Positions 7,968-58,772 of a stretch of DNA of 64,000 bases are shown piece by piece. The stretch covers positions 124,001-188,000 of the forward strand of contig CALSPM010000002.1 in NCBI GenBank assembly GCA_943788235.1. The letters are read 5' to 3'. A program made the translations under genes and the position numbers. The stretch's first letter is position 1. Every line of letters starts with the position of its first letter. The notes beneath the pieces were generated by a model. It saw nothing but the letters and a program-made list of their open reading frames with translations. It searched no databases and was not told the DNA's origin. Source of the stretch: an uncultured Cyclobacteriaceae bacterium (GTDB lineage: Bacteria; Bacteroidota; Bacteroidia; Cytophagales; Cyclobacteriaceae).

Positions 7968-9194
7968 TTAGTAGCGCCTTTTAGATGAGAAATTCCGTTT
8001 ACCATTGGGTGATTTTTTGCCCATTTTTTTCTGGGCGATCGCCGCGGCCACTTCATTGGCAGGATCAGGCGCGTAACCTTCAATTGTGCTGCTTGGAATA
8101 TTCTGTTTGGTCAATTTCTCAATATCCTTGAGGTACGTTACTTCGTCAAAGCTCACCAATGAAATGGCTTCTCCACTGGCTCCGGCACGTCCGGTACGGC
8201 CAATTCGATGCACATAATCTTCGGGTATATTAGGGAGTTCAAAATTGACCACGTGTGGGAGCAAGGGGATATCTAATCCTCTGGCTGCGATATCGGTGGC
8301 CACTAAGACACGGACATTGCCAGTTTTAAAACTTGAAAGGGCTGTAGTTCGAGCCCCTTGCGTTTTATTACCATGTATGGCTGCTGAGTCGATTCCTGCT
8401 TTTTCCAATTTTTGACAAAGTCGATTGGCTCCGTTTTTGGTACGGGTGAAAATCAACACTTGGCTCCATTCACCTTCCGATATAAGCTTAATAATCAAAC
8501 TTGTTTTCTTAGATTGATCTACGCGGTAGATGCGTTGATCAATTTTTTCTACGGTTGTATTTTCGGGCGTAGCTTCGACAAGCACAGGACGGTCCAGAAA
8601 ACTGTTGGACAGATGTTTGATCTCTTTTGAAAAAGTCGCTGAAAACAATAAATTTTGTCTTTTGGTAGGAAGCAAATCTAAAATTCTTCGGATGTCGCGA
8701 AGAAATCCCATGTCAAGCATTCTATCGGCTTCGTCTAGAACTAAAATTTCTACTTCTGATAAGCTCAAAACTCTTTGTCCATGCAAGTCCAACAGCCTTC
8801 CTGGGGTGGCAATCAATATATCGACGCCACTTTGAAGAGTTTTAATTTGAGGATTGGCATTGACACCACCAAAGATGACCGTAGATTTGATTTCTATAAA
8901 ATGGCTATATTCATCAACATTTTGCTTGATTTGCGCGGCCAGTTCTCGAGTTGGTGTGAGAATCAAGGATCTGATGACCCTTCTCTTTGTTGCGGGTCTC
9001 TTGGAGAGCAACTCAAGGATGGGCAGAGTAAATCCTGCAGTTTTTCCCGTACCCGTTTGGGCAGAAGCTAAAATATCTTTTCGATCTAGAATTACCGGAA
9101 TGGCTTTTTCCTGAATTGAGGAAGGATCTGAATATCCTTTTTTAGTTATCGCTTTAAGTAAAGCTTCGGAAAGGCCTAATTGATTGAACGACAT
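7968..9194 (-). CDS. DEAD-box RNA helicase, RhlE-like
   Basis: A 408-residue protein with all canonical motifs in order: Q motif ([14 protein letters not shown]), Walker [60 protein letters not shown] and [10 protein letters not shown]. The short basic tail ([17 protein letters not shown]) is typical of RhlE-type enzymes and probably contacts RNA. The family unwinds RNA duplexes using ATP in ribosome assembly, mRNA turnover and cold adaptation. The start ATG at 9194 is preceded by a long AT-rich region. It converges on the DbpA-like helicase. Confidence 0.92.
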
Positions 9195-9571: not shown

Positions 9572-10093
9572 ATGAAGATAATAGACAATCGATCCTTAAT
9601 TTATCAGTGGTTGTTTTTTTGCTATTGATGATGGGGTATATGCCAATGAATCCATAATGTTGACCCAAGATTTTTTATTGTTTGAGCATAATGATGGGCT
9701 TAACTATTTCAATGTCGATATCAGACGTTTTGATCCGAGATGTCTGTCAACTTTTTGGATATGACATTCGATGTCGTTGAAGGCTTTGGTATGGGTTTTC
9801 TATATCCGCGGACCCATCCTACGGTGATGGATTTTGAATCCATTGATGAGTGACATGTGGCGGGCTATGGCATGAGTTTTTTGGTTGGTGTTGAGCTGAG
9901 CTTTTTAAAGCATTTCTTTTTACAAACCGAATTAAAATTAGGCTATATCAATATGCTCGATATTTTAACCCATCCAGCAGGAGCGGATAGGGCAAGTTAA
10001 AGTTTTTGGTTCCTACAAAAATTACTATATTTTTGGGGGCAGATGGGGGCAGATGGGGGCAGATGGGGGCTGAATTTCAATAAAGACTCATAA
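9572..10093 (+). pseudogene. decayed outer-membrane beta-barrel protein gene
   Basis: Joining fragments across frames recovers a secreted barrel protein. A start MKIIDNRSLIYQWLFF runs into a hydrophobic segment LLLMMGYMP only if one T is added to the T7 run near 9613-9620. Further shifts give TQDFLLFEHNDGLNYFNVDI, then MTFDVVEGFGMGF. An in-frame TGA follows FESIDE. After it come GYGMSFLVGVELSFLKHFF and LQTELKLGYINM, alternating strands typical of barrels. A last shift gives VKVFGSYKNYYIFGG, and the C-terminus LNFNKDS ends at TAA 10091-10093. Several independent lesions show true decay. Expression as a full protein is not possible. Confidence 0.75.
10035..10070 (+). repeat. 10-bp tandem repeat, 3.6 copies of GGGGGCAGAT
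   Basis: Three perfect units of GGGGGCAGAT followed by GGGGGC lie inside the last codons of the OMP pseudogene. Reading through a single unit joins the strand YYIFGGRWG to the terminal LNFNKDS in frame. The unit is not a multiple of three, so copy-number change alters the frame. Confidence 0.9.
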
Positions 10094-10139: not shown

Positions 10140-11351
10140 TTATAAACTCACTTTTGCATGTTTGATGTGATGACGTTCTTCTTCCGATGCGGTCCAGGCG
10201 AAATACAATTGATTTTCAAATAATTCCATTTGAGGAAAACCACTGGATCTTGAACTGTTGGTTTCGGAGATGACGATAGGATTCCCTATGATTCCAGTGC
10301 TATTGACTGCGATAGCTTTAATTTGGGATTTCTCAGCTTGAAAACTCAACCAACTCACAAAAGCCATTCCTTTTTCATCCATGGCTACATCTACTCTTCC
10401 CAGTGGATTGCGGTCATCTATGACGATTGGGGCTTCAAAGGTAGCACCGGCATCTTTTGAGAAGATTATTTTTACTTGAGGGATATCATTGGGTGCTGAA
10501 AACCAGGCTACGGCTACTTGGTTACCTTGTGCCACGATGCGCGGCCCATTCACTGGACAGCCCGCAATTTTCCATTGGTCATTGAATACGGTCTTAGGTG
10601 CCGTCCATTGCCCCTTTACTTTTCTTACGATGGATATATCTCGGTATTCCTCCTCTGTTCGATCTCTATAAACAAAGACAGGACCAGCAGAGGTCAGCGC
10701 GCCACTTGTTTGACAGCAGTCACATACGCGCGCGTCTAGCTCAGTTGGTTCGGTGAGCACTCCTTGTAGATTGATATTGGCTGTTCTGAGGGTCATCGCC
10801 CCTTTACCATACCCATCATTTGACTTTGGGCTGCTTGTATTTCTGCCATCCAGCCAAACCGCGGTGAAAGTTTGGTTTGGCATGGGGAGAAGAGTGGCAA
10901 AGCCGTGTTCGGTGGGTGTTTGATCATCATGAGGGATGATGCTTGAACTCCAAGGTTGTGAATCCATACTCAAGGTCAGATTGACGTCGTATGAATAGGT
11001 ACCTGATGAGCTTTTAGCCAAAAAATGGCTGATTTTATTTCCTTCGCTATCTATGTTAAGAGATGGATAATCCGCCCAATTCACAAACCAATCAGTACCT
11101 GATGCAATGATTTCCGTGTGACTCCATTTTTTTTCTTTTTCCAAAGAAGCAAAATAAAGGGTCGATCGGTCTTCGGTTTCCCCGATCCAACTGAGATAAA
11201 GCTGATGGTCTTCTCCCACTTTAAGAAAAGGTAAAGAGGTACCTTCATCCGCGGGACCCTTGAATAGTTCAACACTTGTTTGATGTAACCCGGCTTCTTC
11301 ACTGCATGCGCTGAAGAAGATCATAAAGCCTATGAGCGAAATATATTTCAT
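10140..11351 (-). CDS. exported lipoprotein with BNR/sialidase-like repeats and a Cys cluster
   Basis: The start chosen is the ATG at 11349-11351 (MKYISLIGFMIFFSACSEE), because it gives a clear lipoprotein signal with lipobox SAC at about residues 14-16; the frame is open 52 codons further upstream without signal-like sequence. The mature part (about 403 residues in all) has repeating segments such as HQLYLSWIGETEDR, ISHFLAKSSSGT, QVAVAWFSAPNDIPQVKIIFS and FVSWLSFQAEKSQIKA. They resemble Asp-box/BNR propeller blades. A cysteine cluster VCDCCQTSG near the middle, with a later AGCPVNGP, is unlike sialidases and could bind metal. It follows the TlpA gene of the copper-efflux locus. No enzyme activity is assigned. 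Confidence 0.72.
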   Translation of the reverse strand: MKYISLIGFMIFFSACSEEAGLHQTSVELFKGPADEGTSLPFLKVGEDHQLYLSWIGETEDRSTLYFASLEKEKKWSHTEIIASGTDWFVNWADYPSLNIDSEGNKISHFLAKSSSGTYSYDVNLTLSMDSQPWSSSIIPHDDQTPTEHGFATLLPMPNQTFTAVWLDGRNTSSPKSNDGYGKGAMTLRTANINLQGVLTEPTELDARVCDCCQTSGALTSAGPVFVYRDRTEEEYRDISIVRKVKGQWTAPKTVFNDQWKIAGCPVNGPRIVAQGNQVAVAWFSAPNDIPQVKIIFSKDAGATFEAPIVIDDRNPLGRVDVAMDEKGMAFVSWLSFQAEKSQIKAIAVNSTGIIGNPIVISETNSSRSSGFPQMELFENQLYFAWTASEEERHHIKHAKVSL

Positions 11352-11591
11352 GGAATGTTCGTTAATGAGGTTACGCTGAGAATATACCTTCTTAATATGC
11401 AATATAGCCATGTTCTTACTCATCTCAAAGCAAGGATAAGCTGAAACAAAATAAACCCTAAGTAGGACAAGATCATTTATCAACCTGAAATTATGACAAT
11501 CATTCAAAAAAATTGGGGTTATGTTTATATACGACTTGGTAAACTGATCTAACCGCTCATACTGCAGTAGTTTCGCCTGGATGCGTCGACT

Positions 11592-53395: not shown

Positions 53396-56293
53396 TCAAA
53401 AGGCAATAGACGCTACGATAAACTCAACTTTTTGGCTGTATACTGTCGTATTTAAAGGATAGGAGAACCTGACACCTAAATCAAAATCAACTAATCGAAG
53501 GGTCCGGACATCAAAAGTTAGTTCAATGCCTGCCGACTCGTAAACATCTTCAGCGTAAGGTACACTTCCGTTAAATGTAACCGGGCTGAGGGGGGTAAGA
53601 TCACCGATAGAAGTATTATTTAAAATTACCCTTGAGTGATCATAAAATAAGTTTGCCTTGATTCTTTTGATGAAAAATAAGGGTCCTATGGCTAAATCAG
53701 GATAGCAAATAGGGAAGGTATAATTGAGACCCATTCGATTGATTTCATCATGGATGAGTTTGCCATAACCTCGGGGATACCTGAAATTATCTAAAAACTT
53801 GTATTGCGCGGTAAAGGGTTCTGAATGATGGTCTATTTCAGCGTAGAAGCTATGGTTTTTAAATATTCCGGGCAAATAAAGCCTACTATTGATTAAAAAA
53901 GCATGGGAAGTATTGGGGGTTATTCCCATACTTTTTTGGTAATTTGACTGAAACAAAACGCCCAATCTTGGGTTGATGTGCTGATAAGCTTGTCGCCGGG
54001 TAAAACGCATTCGGATATCTAATTCATAGCTAGCAAAGGAACCATCTTTTCCAGTTTCTTCCAGAGCATAGTTTACCCAATGTTGGCGGAAGTTTTGGTT
54101 GATCTCAATGAAATTATAAAAATTTCCTACAGTTAAGTTGAAAGGCAATCTTAGGCCTAGACCTACTTTGTTTTCGGTCCAGTTTTGATTTCTTGTTTCT
54201 AGATTAGGCGTGATCGCATCATTTTTTTCGGTTTCAAAGTAGACCGGCACATAGCTATTTCTGTTTTCTAGTGCCGTTTCTAGTTTCAAAATAGGATAGT
54301 ATTTTGCCCATTGTAAGCCGGCAGACCATGAACTATTTTTTTCATTTAAATTGAATCGGTAGGCGCCTATACCAGATAAATTGCTCATCTTGTTGTCTGC
54401 GTACACATTAAATATCAGATTGGGACGTTCATAAGCCAATAACCGACTGTGCAGTTGTAATCGATCTGTAGTAGGATAGGATTGCTCTTCATAAGATTGC
54501 TCGGAAATATTTTCAAGAATATCATCTTTAAACAGGGGTTCAAAATAATCAACCAATGAATGTTCTGCGCTTTCAAGAGGTTTCCAATTTTCTTTGATCA
54601 CCGGAGTGGTCTGGATGTCATAACCCATATCCGAATACGCACTATAAGCCAGCATTTTTCCATTTGGGGAAATACTTGGTTGGATAGCACCAAAGAGGGT
54701 AGAGGTTACTTGATAAACGCGCTGATCTTGGATTGAAAAGGCATAAATATTATCTATGCCATTGAAGATGCCATCGAAGTAAATATAATTTTGGTGGGAT
54801 GTTAAATGGGCTATTTTTTCACTCCACCAGGGGGTGATCAGGTGACTTTTTCCTGTGCCAAGATGGATGATTTGAATAGCATTTTTTCCTGATTTCCGTA
54901 CGATTGTAGCGATCCTTGTTTCATCTATCCAAGTGGGAAACGCATATTGATATTGATCTTCATTATTGATTATTTCATCCAGATGACCGTTTTGAACATT
55001 GAGGATATGAAGCTCATACCCTTGATTGGCAGGGGCATGAACTGCGACAATTTTATCCTTACTCTTGTTGATTTCGGGGGCAAAATATCGAGCTTTAAGG
55101 GTGAGTTGCTTTTTTAATTGCAGGGTATGATCATATCTAATGAGATTACTATATTCTACATTTCCCCATCTGGGGTCATAGGCTTTTTCGGTCCAAATGA
55201 GATAAGATTTATTGATACTTAATTGGGCATTGGAGGGAGTATAAAATCCAGGACACGTGATGCGATTTTCTGTCCCATCTGTTTGTATGCGGTAGAATGT
55301 CGGAATTTCATTGAACCCTACCTTCTCAGCGATGAGGGTTTCCGCATCAAGGTAGTTGGGGTGTGCGTAGCTCGTAAAAGTCTTTTTTACCTTATTATTT
55401 ATCGTTTCTGCCTCTGTAAGTTTAATTTTAGCTGCTTTTTGTGCCCATTCTTTCTTTAATTTTGAAAAGGTAGCTTCATAATATTTAGGGGTGCGCATAC
55501 CCGTATGTTTTTTTAAGCTTTTACTGAAAGGGTAAAATTTAAGAAAACTTGATTTTACAGCTTCTTGAAGTAGGTTCCCCATGATGCCTTCGCCATAATC
55601 TAGATTCAGGGATGCCGTCAGGTGATAACCCATATTATAAATATTGGGAATCAGTTTTTTATAAGATCCTGCACTATTTTTTTCATAATTCAAGGAGTTT
55701 CCTGTCAGTAATAGGGCACGATACTGTCCCTCGAAATAGGGCATCCGACCACGTCCTGCATTACTTAAGAGGGTCTCTGTGAAAACCGCATCTCCTTCAA
55801 AAAACCAAGGAGGCATAATTAAATGTGCCAAGGAACTCCAAAAATAATCACCAAAAATCATATAGGCGGCGTTGACGATATTTATCCGGGCGTTTTGTAA
55901 TTGCTGTACATGTCGATATTCGTGGATGGCCAATAGGTCATTCCAGTCAATCGCTCCACCAAAATTATTTTGTGGGGGGTTGGTATAAAATTCTGAACGA
56001 AAAGGTCCCACTGCAACAAATGCATTGGGAGTGATGGATTGATTTTGAAGAATGATACTCACTTGTTCTTTTTTCGGACCTAAGGAAAAGTAACTGCTAT
56101 CACTAAGTTTCTGAATGACATTGGCAATCCGAGCAGCTTGGCTATAAATGCCTTCTTGATAGATGATCTTTGTCGCATCGTTTTCTATGTATTTCCATTG
56201 AATAGTGGGTGGATTAAGTCCTATATTGTAGGACTGAGCCATCAATCTATAGGAAAAAATAACAATAGAAAGAGTTAAATGTATTCTTTTCAT
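53396..56293 (-). CDS. large exported protein: peptidase-MA-like domain, propeller and C-terminal barrel
   Basis: A 965-residue protein with a signal peptide (ending LMAQ). Residues about 30-290 form a gluzincin-like domain: a zinc motif HEYRH in LLAIHEYRHVQQLQNA (near 127) and PPWFFEGDAVFTETLL about 35 residues on, whose Glu could be the third ligand. The middle (about 320-580) has TolB/WD40-type blades, such as QYAFPTWIDETRIATIV and AIQPSISPNGKMLAYSAYS. The last 330 residues form barrel strands, ending VKFIVASIAF-like. It is TAATG-coupled to the broken LpxR-like gene. A surface protease-like role is inferred; no exact family name is given. Confidence 0.75.
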   Translation of the reverse strand: MKRIHLTLSIVIFSYRLMAQSYNIGLNPPTIQWKYIENDATKIIYQEGIYSQAARIANVIQKLSDSSYFSLGPKKEQVSIILQNQSITPNAFVAVGPFRSEFYTNPPQNNFGGAIDWNDLLAIHEYRHVQQLQNARINIVNAAYMIFGDYFWSSLAHLIMPPWFFEGDAVFTETLLSNAGRGRMPYFEGQYRALLLTGNSLNYEKNSAGSYKKLIPNIYNMGYHLTASLNLDYGEGIMGNLLQEAVKSSFLKFYPFSKSLKKHTGMRTPKYYEATFSKLKKEWAQKAAKIKLTEAETINNKVKKTFTSYAHPNYLDAETLIAEKVGFNEIPTFYRIQTDGTENRITCPGFYTPSNAQLSINKSYLIWTEKAYDPRWGNVEYSNLIRYDHTLQLKKQLTLKARYFAPEINKSKDKIVAVHAPANQGYELHILNVQNGHLDEIINNEDQYQYAFPTWIDETRIATIVRKSGKNAIQIIHLGTGKSHLITPWWSEKIAHLTSHQNYIYFDGIFNGIDNIYAFSIQDQRVYQVTSTLFGAIQPSISPNGKMLAYSAYSDMGYDIQTTPVIKENWKPLESAEHSLVDYFEPLFKDDILENISEQSYEEQSYPTTDRLQLHSRLLAYERPNLIFNVYADNKMSNLSGIGAYRFNLNEKNSSWSAGLQWAKYYPILKLETALENRNSYVPVYFETEKNDAITPNLETRNQNWTENKVGLGLRLPFNLTVGNFYNFIEINQNFRQHWVNYALEETGKDGSFASYELDIRMRFTRRQAYQHINPRLGVLFQSNYQKSMGITPNTSHAFLINSRLYLPGIFKNHSFYAEIDHHSEPFTAQYKFLDNFRYPRGYGKLIHDEINRMGLNYTFPICYPDLAIGPLFFIKRIKANLFYDHSRVILNNTSIGDLTPLSPVTFNGSVPYAEDVYESAGIELTFDVRTLRLVDFDLGVRFSYPLNTTVYSQKVEFIVASIAF

Positions 56294-57281
56294 TAGAACC
56301 GATTATTGAGCGTAATACCTACATACTGGTGGGCTTCTGCTTCAAGAGTTTCTTTGGTTTTAATATAATAAGTAGTAATCAAGTCAAATCGGGGCCAACT
56401 CAGAGCAAAACCGATACGATTTTGAAAAATCCATGATTTTGCTGTTTCAGTATGTGGACTTTGAGGCCCAATGAAGTTGCCTTCAATGGTGGCATTATAT
56501 GCGTTATAGATAAATCCAGGAGCATAAAAAAAATAACTTTCTATTATTTTCTTGGTCCGGTTTGAAGAAGAGGGGCTACCTAAATGTCCTCCGAACAAAG
56601 TTGTTGAGCCCTGATGTTTTACAAAATTGAATCTTACCAGTAGTTCTTCCGAAAATTGATTGAAAACAGTTCCTACGGATATATTTGACTGGGAATAGAG
56701 ATCGATAATTTCATTACCTACCAACCTTCGAGTATAAGAAGCATGAAAATTAATCACGGGACTATGGGCGATTTGGTACTTCCAACCGGCGGGTATAGGA
56801 ATATTTAATACCGTATGCCAGGTAATTTGAAAATCGTCGGTCAGTGTATGAGGCCCCATTAATCCAAGTTCAACACTTATTTTTAAATACTCCTTTTGGT
56901 TGATATAAAATTCTCTATTTAAGCTAAGTCCCAAGAGGCCTGCATAAGGGCGATCAAACTCCTTAGGATCATCCCAAGAGACCCTTCTGGGTGTATAAAT
57001 TCGTTGATGAAGCGATATGTGAATGAATTGATTTTATGTTTATTGATTTTATGTTTATTGATTTTATGTTTATTGATTTTATGTTTATTGATTTTATTTT
57101 TACTGAGCCATCTGTAATCAAGATAAAGACCAGAAGTATAGTACTGATCTCTTTCTAGAGAGGTAAACACATCATTATCAATGGTCAATCTGACTTCTTT
57201 GGTGTGCACATTTACGGTGTCTTGCGCTTTCATAAGACAGGGACATAGAAGGAACAGGCAAAACCAAACCAATTTGTACAT
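56293..57281 (-). pseudogene. LpxR-like lipid A deacylase gene split by a frameshift
   Basis: The N-terminal piece starts at ATG 57281 (MYKLVWFCLFLLCPCLMKA signal) and has the LpxR signature LTIDNDVFTSLERDQYYTSG. It then runs into a KHKIN repeat and ends out of frame at 56919. The rest, in another frame, has LHQRIYTPRRVSWDD, FDRPYAGLLGLSLNR and LGLMGPHTLTDDFQITWH and ends at 56293. A one-base deletion or two-base insertion next to the repeats explains the split; joined length is about 329 residues. LpxR is an outer-membrane barrel enzyme removing the 3'-acyloxyacyl chain of lipid A. Confidence 0.85.
57027..57101 (-). repeat. 15-bp tandem repeat, five copies
   Basis: Four perfect copies of ATTGATTTTATGTTT and one copy with a single change (TTTTT end) on the plus strand. 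On the coding strand each gives KHKIN-like residues. The unit is a multiple of three, so copy change would lengthen or shorten the protein but not shift its frame. Confidence 0.92.
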
Positions 57282-57481
57282 ATAGATCAAAGATAAGCGG
57301 GTTTTACTTCTATAAATAACAGCGAAGAGCATCAATTTAACAAAGCGTACATTTTCTTATTGCCAAAAAAGGCACTAGCTTCTCAAAAATGCATGAAACT
57401 ATACTGTTCTTGGAGGTATGAAGCTATCGCCGATGTATTTATTTAGGGGATTTAAGCCCGTGATTTTTTGGAAAAAAAAGG

Positions 57482-58772
57482 CTAGATAGATCTATTAATG
57501 TCAAATTTTTCAAGATAGTCTGCCACACGTCTCACAAAACCACCACCCAAAGAGCCATCGATGACACGGTGGTCATAGCTATGGGACAAAAACATTTTAT
57601 GACGGATGCCTATAAAGTCACCTTCGGGAGTTTCGATTACCGCAGGTTTTTTTTGTATGGCACCTATAGCCATAATGGCTACTTGAGGTTGCATGATGAT
57701 GGGTGTACCCATAACGTTACCAAATGATCCTACATTAGAAACAGTGAACGTACCCCCGTCCAGTTCATCGGTTTTAAGTGCATTAATGCGTGCTCTATGG
57801 GCTAGATCATTTACTGCTATGACCAAGGATTTAAGATCTAGTAGTTCCGCATTCTTAATGACAGGCACGATGAGATTTCCTGAAGGAAGTGCCACAGCAA
57901 CACCAATATTAATATGGCTTTTTTTAATAATTTGATCACCTTGGACTTGAATGTTGATCATAGGGTGATCTTTGATGGCTTTCACTACTGCCTCAATAAT
58001 GATGGGGGTAAAAGTTAACGATTGATATGAGGTTGCCTTGAATTTTTCTTTGAATTTATTTCTCCAAGAAACAATGGGACTCATGTCTGCTTCGACAAAG
58101 GAAGTCACATGTGCAGAAATGGATTTAGATTCAATCATGCGCGAAGCAATTATTTTTCGCATCCGATCCATAGCCATGATTTCATCTTCACCTGAGATTG
58201 TCAGGAGTGTATCGTCTATTGGGTTTTCAAGTATTCCATCAACGGAATCTGATTGCAAATTCCTTGTGCTGAGATAGTCCAACACATCTTGCTTGGTCAA
58301 TCGATCCTCTTTACCTGATCCAGTTATATTTTCAAGTTCGCTGAGATCTATTTGCTCTTGTTTTGCAATATTACGCACCAAGGGAGAATAGAACCGGTTT
58401 TTTTTTGGGATTTGTCAATAGGGTGTCAGGACTTTTCAGATCCATGGCCTGATCTACATCGACCCCATTTTTTTGCTCCGTGGGTTCAGGTGTTACCGAA
58501 GGTCGGATAGTGAGAGGCTCGTCTCCTTCGGTCAAAAGCTCTATGATGGCTATGGGCTTACCGACTTGAATGACATCCCCTTCTTGGGCCAGTATTTCTT
58601 TGAGAATTCCGGCGTGAGTGGAGGGAATTTCTGTATCTACTTTGTCAGTAGCAACTTCGAGAACAGACTCATCTTCATCTATAGAATCGCCCACCTTCTT
58701 TAACCATGACAAAATAGTACCTTCCATTACACTTTCACCCATTTTGGGCATCGTCATTTCAATAGAAGCCAT
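57482..58772 (-). pseudogene. 2-oxoacid dehydrogenase E2 (dihydrolipoamide acyltransferase), split at an A9 tract
   Basis: The first frame (58371-58772) holds the lipoyl domain, MASIEMTMPKMGESVMEGTI with the lipoyl Lys in EVATDKVDTEIP (about residue 44), and then runs out of frame. The second (57482-58381) holds the peripheral-subunit-binding segment RNIAKQEQIDLSELENI and the catalytic domain with SHSYDHRVIDGSLGG (His and Asp of the active site). They meet at nine A on the coding strand (58398-58406). With eight A the reading becomes NPKKNRFYSPLVRNIA and gives one normal 429-residue E2. The protein transfers acyl groups to CoA in the pyruvate, branched-chain or 2-oxoglutarate complex; which one is unclear because E1 and E3 are not in the window. 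Confidence 0.82.

Follow-up and report, generated by a model that had tools for sequence, protein, structure and literature searches.

A frame break at a nine-adenine run in an E2 acyltransferase gene of an uncultured marine Cyclobacteriaceae bacterium

Described systems and the split E2 locus

In dnaX of Thermus thermophilus, a templated run of nine A is described as being in frame for the long product, with the short form making up about half of what is made; the same account gives nine as the run length at which counter-selection shows in many genomes (PMC1088944). In the endosymbionts Blochmannia and Buchnera, poly(A) frameshifts are described in which a single indel lies within or next to an A tract and the rest of the gene stays in frame (PMC3017870). 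The 2-oxoacid dehydrogenase E2 has a lipoyl, an E3-binding, and a catalytic domain. The gene analyzed here has all three in the same order, but its chain is broken between the lipoyl and E3-binding domains. It lies on the minus strand of the window, the whole stretch of 64,000 nucleotides that was analyzed (GC content, 37.9%), in a source genome of 3.25 Mb. Its features are as follows.

58371..58772, minus strand: 133-aa ORF encoding the lipoyl domain and the first part of the linker, with the C-terminal end NPKKKPVLFSLGA
58398..58406, minus strand: A9 run where the frame breaks, within the linker that joins the lipoyl and E3-binding domains
57482..58381, minus strand: 299-aa ORF starting at TTG and encoding the E3-binding domain, matched from profile position 7, and the catalytic domain of a 2-oxoacid dehydrogenase acyltransferase

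The plus strand reads T9 at 58398-58406 and the coding strand AATCCC-A9-CCGG, so the nine A counted in a preliminary description of this DNA are present. That description had also set the lipoyl half of the E2 apart from its binding and catalytic half, and the two halves do lie in different frames. Domain profiles agree, each match exceeding its cut-off: PF00364 (lipoyl domain, 3.3e-22) is found in the 58371-58772 ORF, and PF02817 (E3-binding domain, 2.1e-7, only from profile position 7 on) and PF00198 (catalytic domain, 2.3e-72) follow in the 57482-58381 ORF. The domains that a member of the E2 family carries in a single open frame are thus distributed over two in the source genome. The lesion is a single one, both halves being open apart from the frame break. 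In the second frame, a TTG begins 8 bases and a GTG 5 bases ahead of the stop of the first ORF, which makes restart possible; judging from the reading frames, a catalytic core started there would have no arm and a clipped E3-binding domain.

The source genome has two further E2 genes, whose frames are open for 512 and 542 codons; an E1 gene with a 919-codon frame lies about 2 kb from one of the two. The split gene, with its single lipoyl domain, is therefore the third E2. Neither of its halves reaches the NCBIfam equivalog cut-offs, and the gene may, by elimination only, be of the branched-chain type. When the intact orthologue of the same-genus relative G007 was compared with solved E2 chains, the best match was 9y7v (2.5e-92), followed by 3duf (2.8e-63), both of which are named pyruvate dehydrogenase E2.

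The E2 gene and its linker in relatives

The catalytic half was matched in all 58 other genomes searched, in some of them by other E2 genes only. Eight of nine same-genus relatives (G001 to G008) have a whole orthologue in one open frame, of 430 to 431 codons in seven and 436 codons in G006, which bears out the earlier reading of an otherwise normal, intact-type E2. In G009 (67% complete, same genus) no E2 orthologue was found, no match being better than those of the other E2 genes. Identity of the 299-aa ORF to its same-genus orthologues is 82 to 95% in seven genomes and 71% in the eighth. We collected 109 locus rows (L005 to L113, including duplicates between two collections) and left out L072, whose 321-codon frame is at a contig end. 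In all of the 108 judgeable rows the linker motif lies within a frame that is open for 429 codons or more, and a split E2 was found in none of them.

A comparison of tract length among relatives, which the preliminary description had proposed, gave A6, A8, A9, or no run longer than four A, every judgeable row being in frame. The linker reads CCCC-A6-G in G007, CC-A9 in G003 and G008, and CCC-A8 in G005, and it lacks an A run of more than four in G001, G002, and G004. The poly-A stretch is confined to a close group, comprising the source genome, G003, G005, and G008, and is located in a poorly conserved part of the protein, the linker. With CCC-A9, the source genome has one base more than G003, G005, G007, and G008. 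Because G003 and G008 carry A9 in frame, run length by itself does not account for the split: the break is at A9, as had been noted, but A9 is not itself the lesion. Since the node that defines the nearest relative of the source genome has a support of 49, the extra base, as far as the alignment can tell, may be an A after CCC (the G005 form) or a C before A9 (the G003 and G008 form).

Age of the lesion and the favored account

To date the lesion, codons unique to one genome among five close genomes were scored as silent or changing. For the catalytic half, the silent/changing counts are 6/5 in the source genome, 19/2 in G007, 7/3 in G003, 9/5 in G005, and 7/7 in G008, and the source genome does not differ significantly from the other four summed (42/17; Fisher p=0.30). 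The same holds for the lipoyl half (2/2 vs. 12/14; p=1.0). In a three-way comparison with G007 and G003, the source branch of the whole E2 shows 18 silent and 14 changing codons, the corresponding counts for intact genes being 2,026 and 983 (p=0.19). With a single lesion, and with relaxation that is significant neither in the catalytic half nor over the whole gene, the E2 does not look like a decayed pseudogene, and its lesion is apparently young. The lack of decay suits an error, a recent mutation, or a rescue equally well and counts only against an old null allele.

Of the readings considered, the likeliest is that an otherwise ordinary E2 gene has recently acquired a +1 frameshift, with rescue that is leaky at best; we hold this view with moderate confidence. 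An error in base counting comes next, and programmed slippage is unlikely. The evidence therefore favors what the preliminary description had named as the rival explanation, a recent mutation or a sequencing error. In the poly-A stretch shared with G003, G005, and G008, an extra base would have arisen either within the A run or where it meets the C run, replication slippage being the simplest route. The main product would then be the 133-residue lipoyl protein. Full-length E2 would be made only through leakage, from RNA with 8 or 11 A, and the catalytic half only through restart at the TTG or GTG just ahead of the first stop. If the assembly is right, the host genome has many genes cut by frameshift. 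The Blochmannia and Buchnera cases, as described in PMC3017870, resemble the E2 gene also in that there is no clear acceleration and leaky rescue is possible. They differ from it in setting, since here the genome is of 3.25 Mb, the GC content of the window has the value given above, and the lesion is found in one genome and known from DNA alone.

Truncated genes elsewhere in the source genome

Among reference ORFs of at least 150 aa, an ORF was counted as truncated if its best same-strand counterpart was shorter than 85% of the reference. By this measure, 10 of 150 G007 ORFs are truncated in the source genome (C2:1-388000 and C5:1-200000), and 1 of 153 in the reverse comparison. Other ORF comparisons contain start-site artefacts, and the 85% tally is therefore the count to use. 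When G003, a FRAM bin that reportedly comes from a long-read study, is taken as the partner, 9 of 167 ORFs are truncated in the source genome and 23 of 162 source-genome ORFs in G003; being itself full of frame breaks, G003 was rejected as the sole yardstick.

Four of the ten truncated genes carry several lesions each: the PEP carboxykinase gene and those at C2:40.1k, 48.6k, and 306.9k. Genes with a single lesion lie at C2:52-55k, C2:80-84k, C2:275k, and C2:280k. The PEP carboxykinase gene (C2:103592-105199) has at least six indels, one of them a 31-nt insertion of repeated sequence; its source-branch codons are 51 silent and 56 changing. Because this gene is broken too, and because the split gene is one of three E2 genes, the earlier argument that loss of a core metabolic enzyme is the less likely explanation is weakened. 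An RND permease gene (C2:80706-84135), whole in eight of nine same-genus relatives, is broken by a single-base frameshift and counts 1 changing codon against 14 silent ones on the source branch; by this pattern it resembles an error or an extremely recent event, and the E2 may be a similar case. We also considered the permease as a second homopolymer case, with an insertion in a T8 run; the alignment has a run of equal length in both genomes, with the break just outside it, and the candidate was dropped.

Constraint in the G007 and G003 lineages could be assessed for seven of the ten truncated genes, the remaining three having no usable G003 data; YheT, which is only slightly shortened, was left out. 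Pooled, the seven show 123 changing and 276 silent codons, against 985 and 3,143 in intact genes (p=0.003), and are thus less constrained; without the RND permease the counts are 121 and 246 (p=0.0002). The E2 itself, with 14 changing and 40 silent codons in these lineages, is near the intact-gene average, so that the argument from low constraint does not rest on it. Over 94 intact genes, the changing/silent ratio is raised on the source branch (983/2,026, vs. 586/2,123 for G007 and 399/1,020 for G003). Given the lower constraint and the raised ratio, most of the lesions look real; together with the multi-lesion genes, these patterns of codon change appear to be a better fit to real mutation than to random error. 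A mutator arising from loss of mismatch repair genes was also considered and is unsupported: MutS1 and MutL, whose presence was judged by sequence, have open frames and score above their cut-offs, so their loss does not explain the frameshifts. The truncated fraction and the raised ratio may reflect either early genome erosion or residual assembly error.

Homopolymer runs and a possible consensus error

The main alternative is that the assembly is one base over at a C/A homopolymer junction and that the organism has a normal, whole E2. We regard this as a serious possibility, if a less probable one. Miscounts are likely where CCC meets A9, the E2 lacks a decay signature, and the strictly conserved RND permease likewise bears a single-base frameshift. 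A run of this kind is not unusual in the source genome, since 588 kb of it (the window and further stretches) contain 25 A9 runs and 41 homopolymer runs of at least nine within ORFs of at least 100 aa. Other runs, however, are mostly consistent in length: of 210 A or T runs of at least seven that the source genome has in aligned coding sequence, 203 have no frame change within four bases relative to G007. The 7 that do compare with 4 of 186 runs in G007, so that no clear excess of frame changes at homopolymer runs was found in the source genome relative to G007. Moreover, 38 of 50 frame-changing indels relative to G007, which are assigned to neither genome, lie outside homopolymer runs. Taken with the run counts, this means that the frame breaks of the source genome are not chiefly a homopolymer matter. 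The several lesions in four of the ten truncated genes also speak against a consensus error, as does an expanded repeat in the gene next downstream of the E2, which is itself frameshifted and belongs to the truncated set.

56293..57335, minus strand: LpxR-like outer-membrane protein gene, next downstream of the E2, frameshifted (ORFs 56919-57335 and 56293-56934)
57027..57106, minus strand: 15-nt tandem repeat, 5.3 copies (KINKH in the protein), within the broken LpxR-like gene

The LpxR-like gene is open in five of the seven relatives examined, a motif search having found none in G001 and G004, and KINKH occurs in at most about one copy in the translations of the five. Elsewhere in the window, a 10-nt tandem repeat, TGGGGGCAGA, is present in 3.7 copies at 10034-10070, between the ORFs 7968-9194 and 10140-11507; its unit is not a multiple of three, yet it lies outside ORFs of at least 100 aa.

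Slippage and other readings

The reading preferred in the preliminary description was transcriptional slippage, in which RNA polymerase slips on A9 so that a lipoyl-only protein and a full E2 are both made on purpose. We consider this improbable. The run is the same as that of Thermus dnaX, nine A on the coding strand in both (PMC1088944), and some frameshifted A-tract genes of endosymbionts are reported to still yield the full product (PMC3017870). An A or T run of at least nine stands at the frame break, as in a slippage gene, but the out-of-frame arrangement is kept in none of the orthologues (0 of 108 judgeable rows), the A9 runs of G003 and G008 being in frame. The likeness to dnaX also ends at the frame, since the A9 of the source genome is out of frame and the split is found in that genome only. 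Long A runs are fewer than expected besides: in 451 ORFs, coding A runs of at least nine number 31, against 56.8 ± 3.3 expected from 30 synonymous-codon shuffles, and T runs of that length are depleted as well (10 vs. 27.4 ± 3.4).

The direction of slippage is equally unfavorable. Rescue calls for one A lost or two gained (8 or 11 A), the less favored direction. In the E. coli and Buchnera runs reported in PMC5574713, insertions predominate and no frame-restoring transcription error was seen, and for the poly(A) runs examined in PMC6260861, no rescue by deletion was obtained with E. coli RNA polymerase. One A gained in RNA leads into the third frame, which reads TGSILPWCVILQNKSK and stops after 16 codons, and a -1 ribosomal shift on A-AAA-AAA enters that same frame, with the same stop. 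The other frameshifts of the source genome also argue against a programmed event here. Because RNA polymerases differ, as Thermus dnaX illustrates, and because about 30% of transcripts of frameshifted endosymbiont genes are given as full length (PMC3017870), leaky rescue is conceivable, although it is unsupported at the E2. It seems very doubtful that an E2 with a fixed extra base is kept alive by slippage on A9, lipoyl-only and full-length proteins coexisting, in a gene-losing marine lineage of Bacteroidota. A literature search pairing slippage with dihydrolipoamide acyltransferase returned no match.

Reversible on/off switching, with a tract that changes length often and both alleles in the population, is still less credible. 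The tract does vary between close relatives (A6, A8, and A9), and the neighboring LpxR-like gene has an expanded repeat, but the close relatives are all in frame, and a repeat unit of 15 nt leaves the frame unchanged whatever the copy number. Metabolic E2 genes are, moreover, not usually known as phase variable. Least plausible of all is a working two-chain E2, in which the lipoyl protein and a catalytic core started separately at the TTG or GTG codon act together, given that the first six positions of the E3-binding profile have no match in the second chain and that the arrangement occurs in none of the relatives examined.

Implications

Taken alone, the finding has little import, since frameshifts of one base next to A tracts are ordinary lesions. 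The locus does illustrate that tempting slippage sites need to be checked for conservation, for slip direction, and for the frameshift background of the genome. Were slippage nevertheless to keep this E2 alive, it would be a free-living parallel of the endosymbiont case. If the truncations prove real in sequencing reads, a marine genome in which about 7% of the compared genes are truncated (10 of 150) and amino acid change is raised may deserve a separate look.
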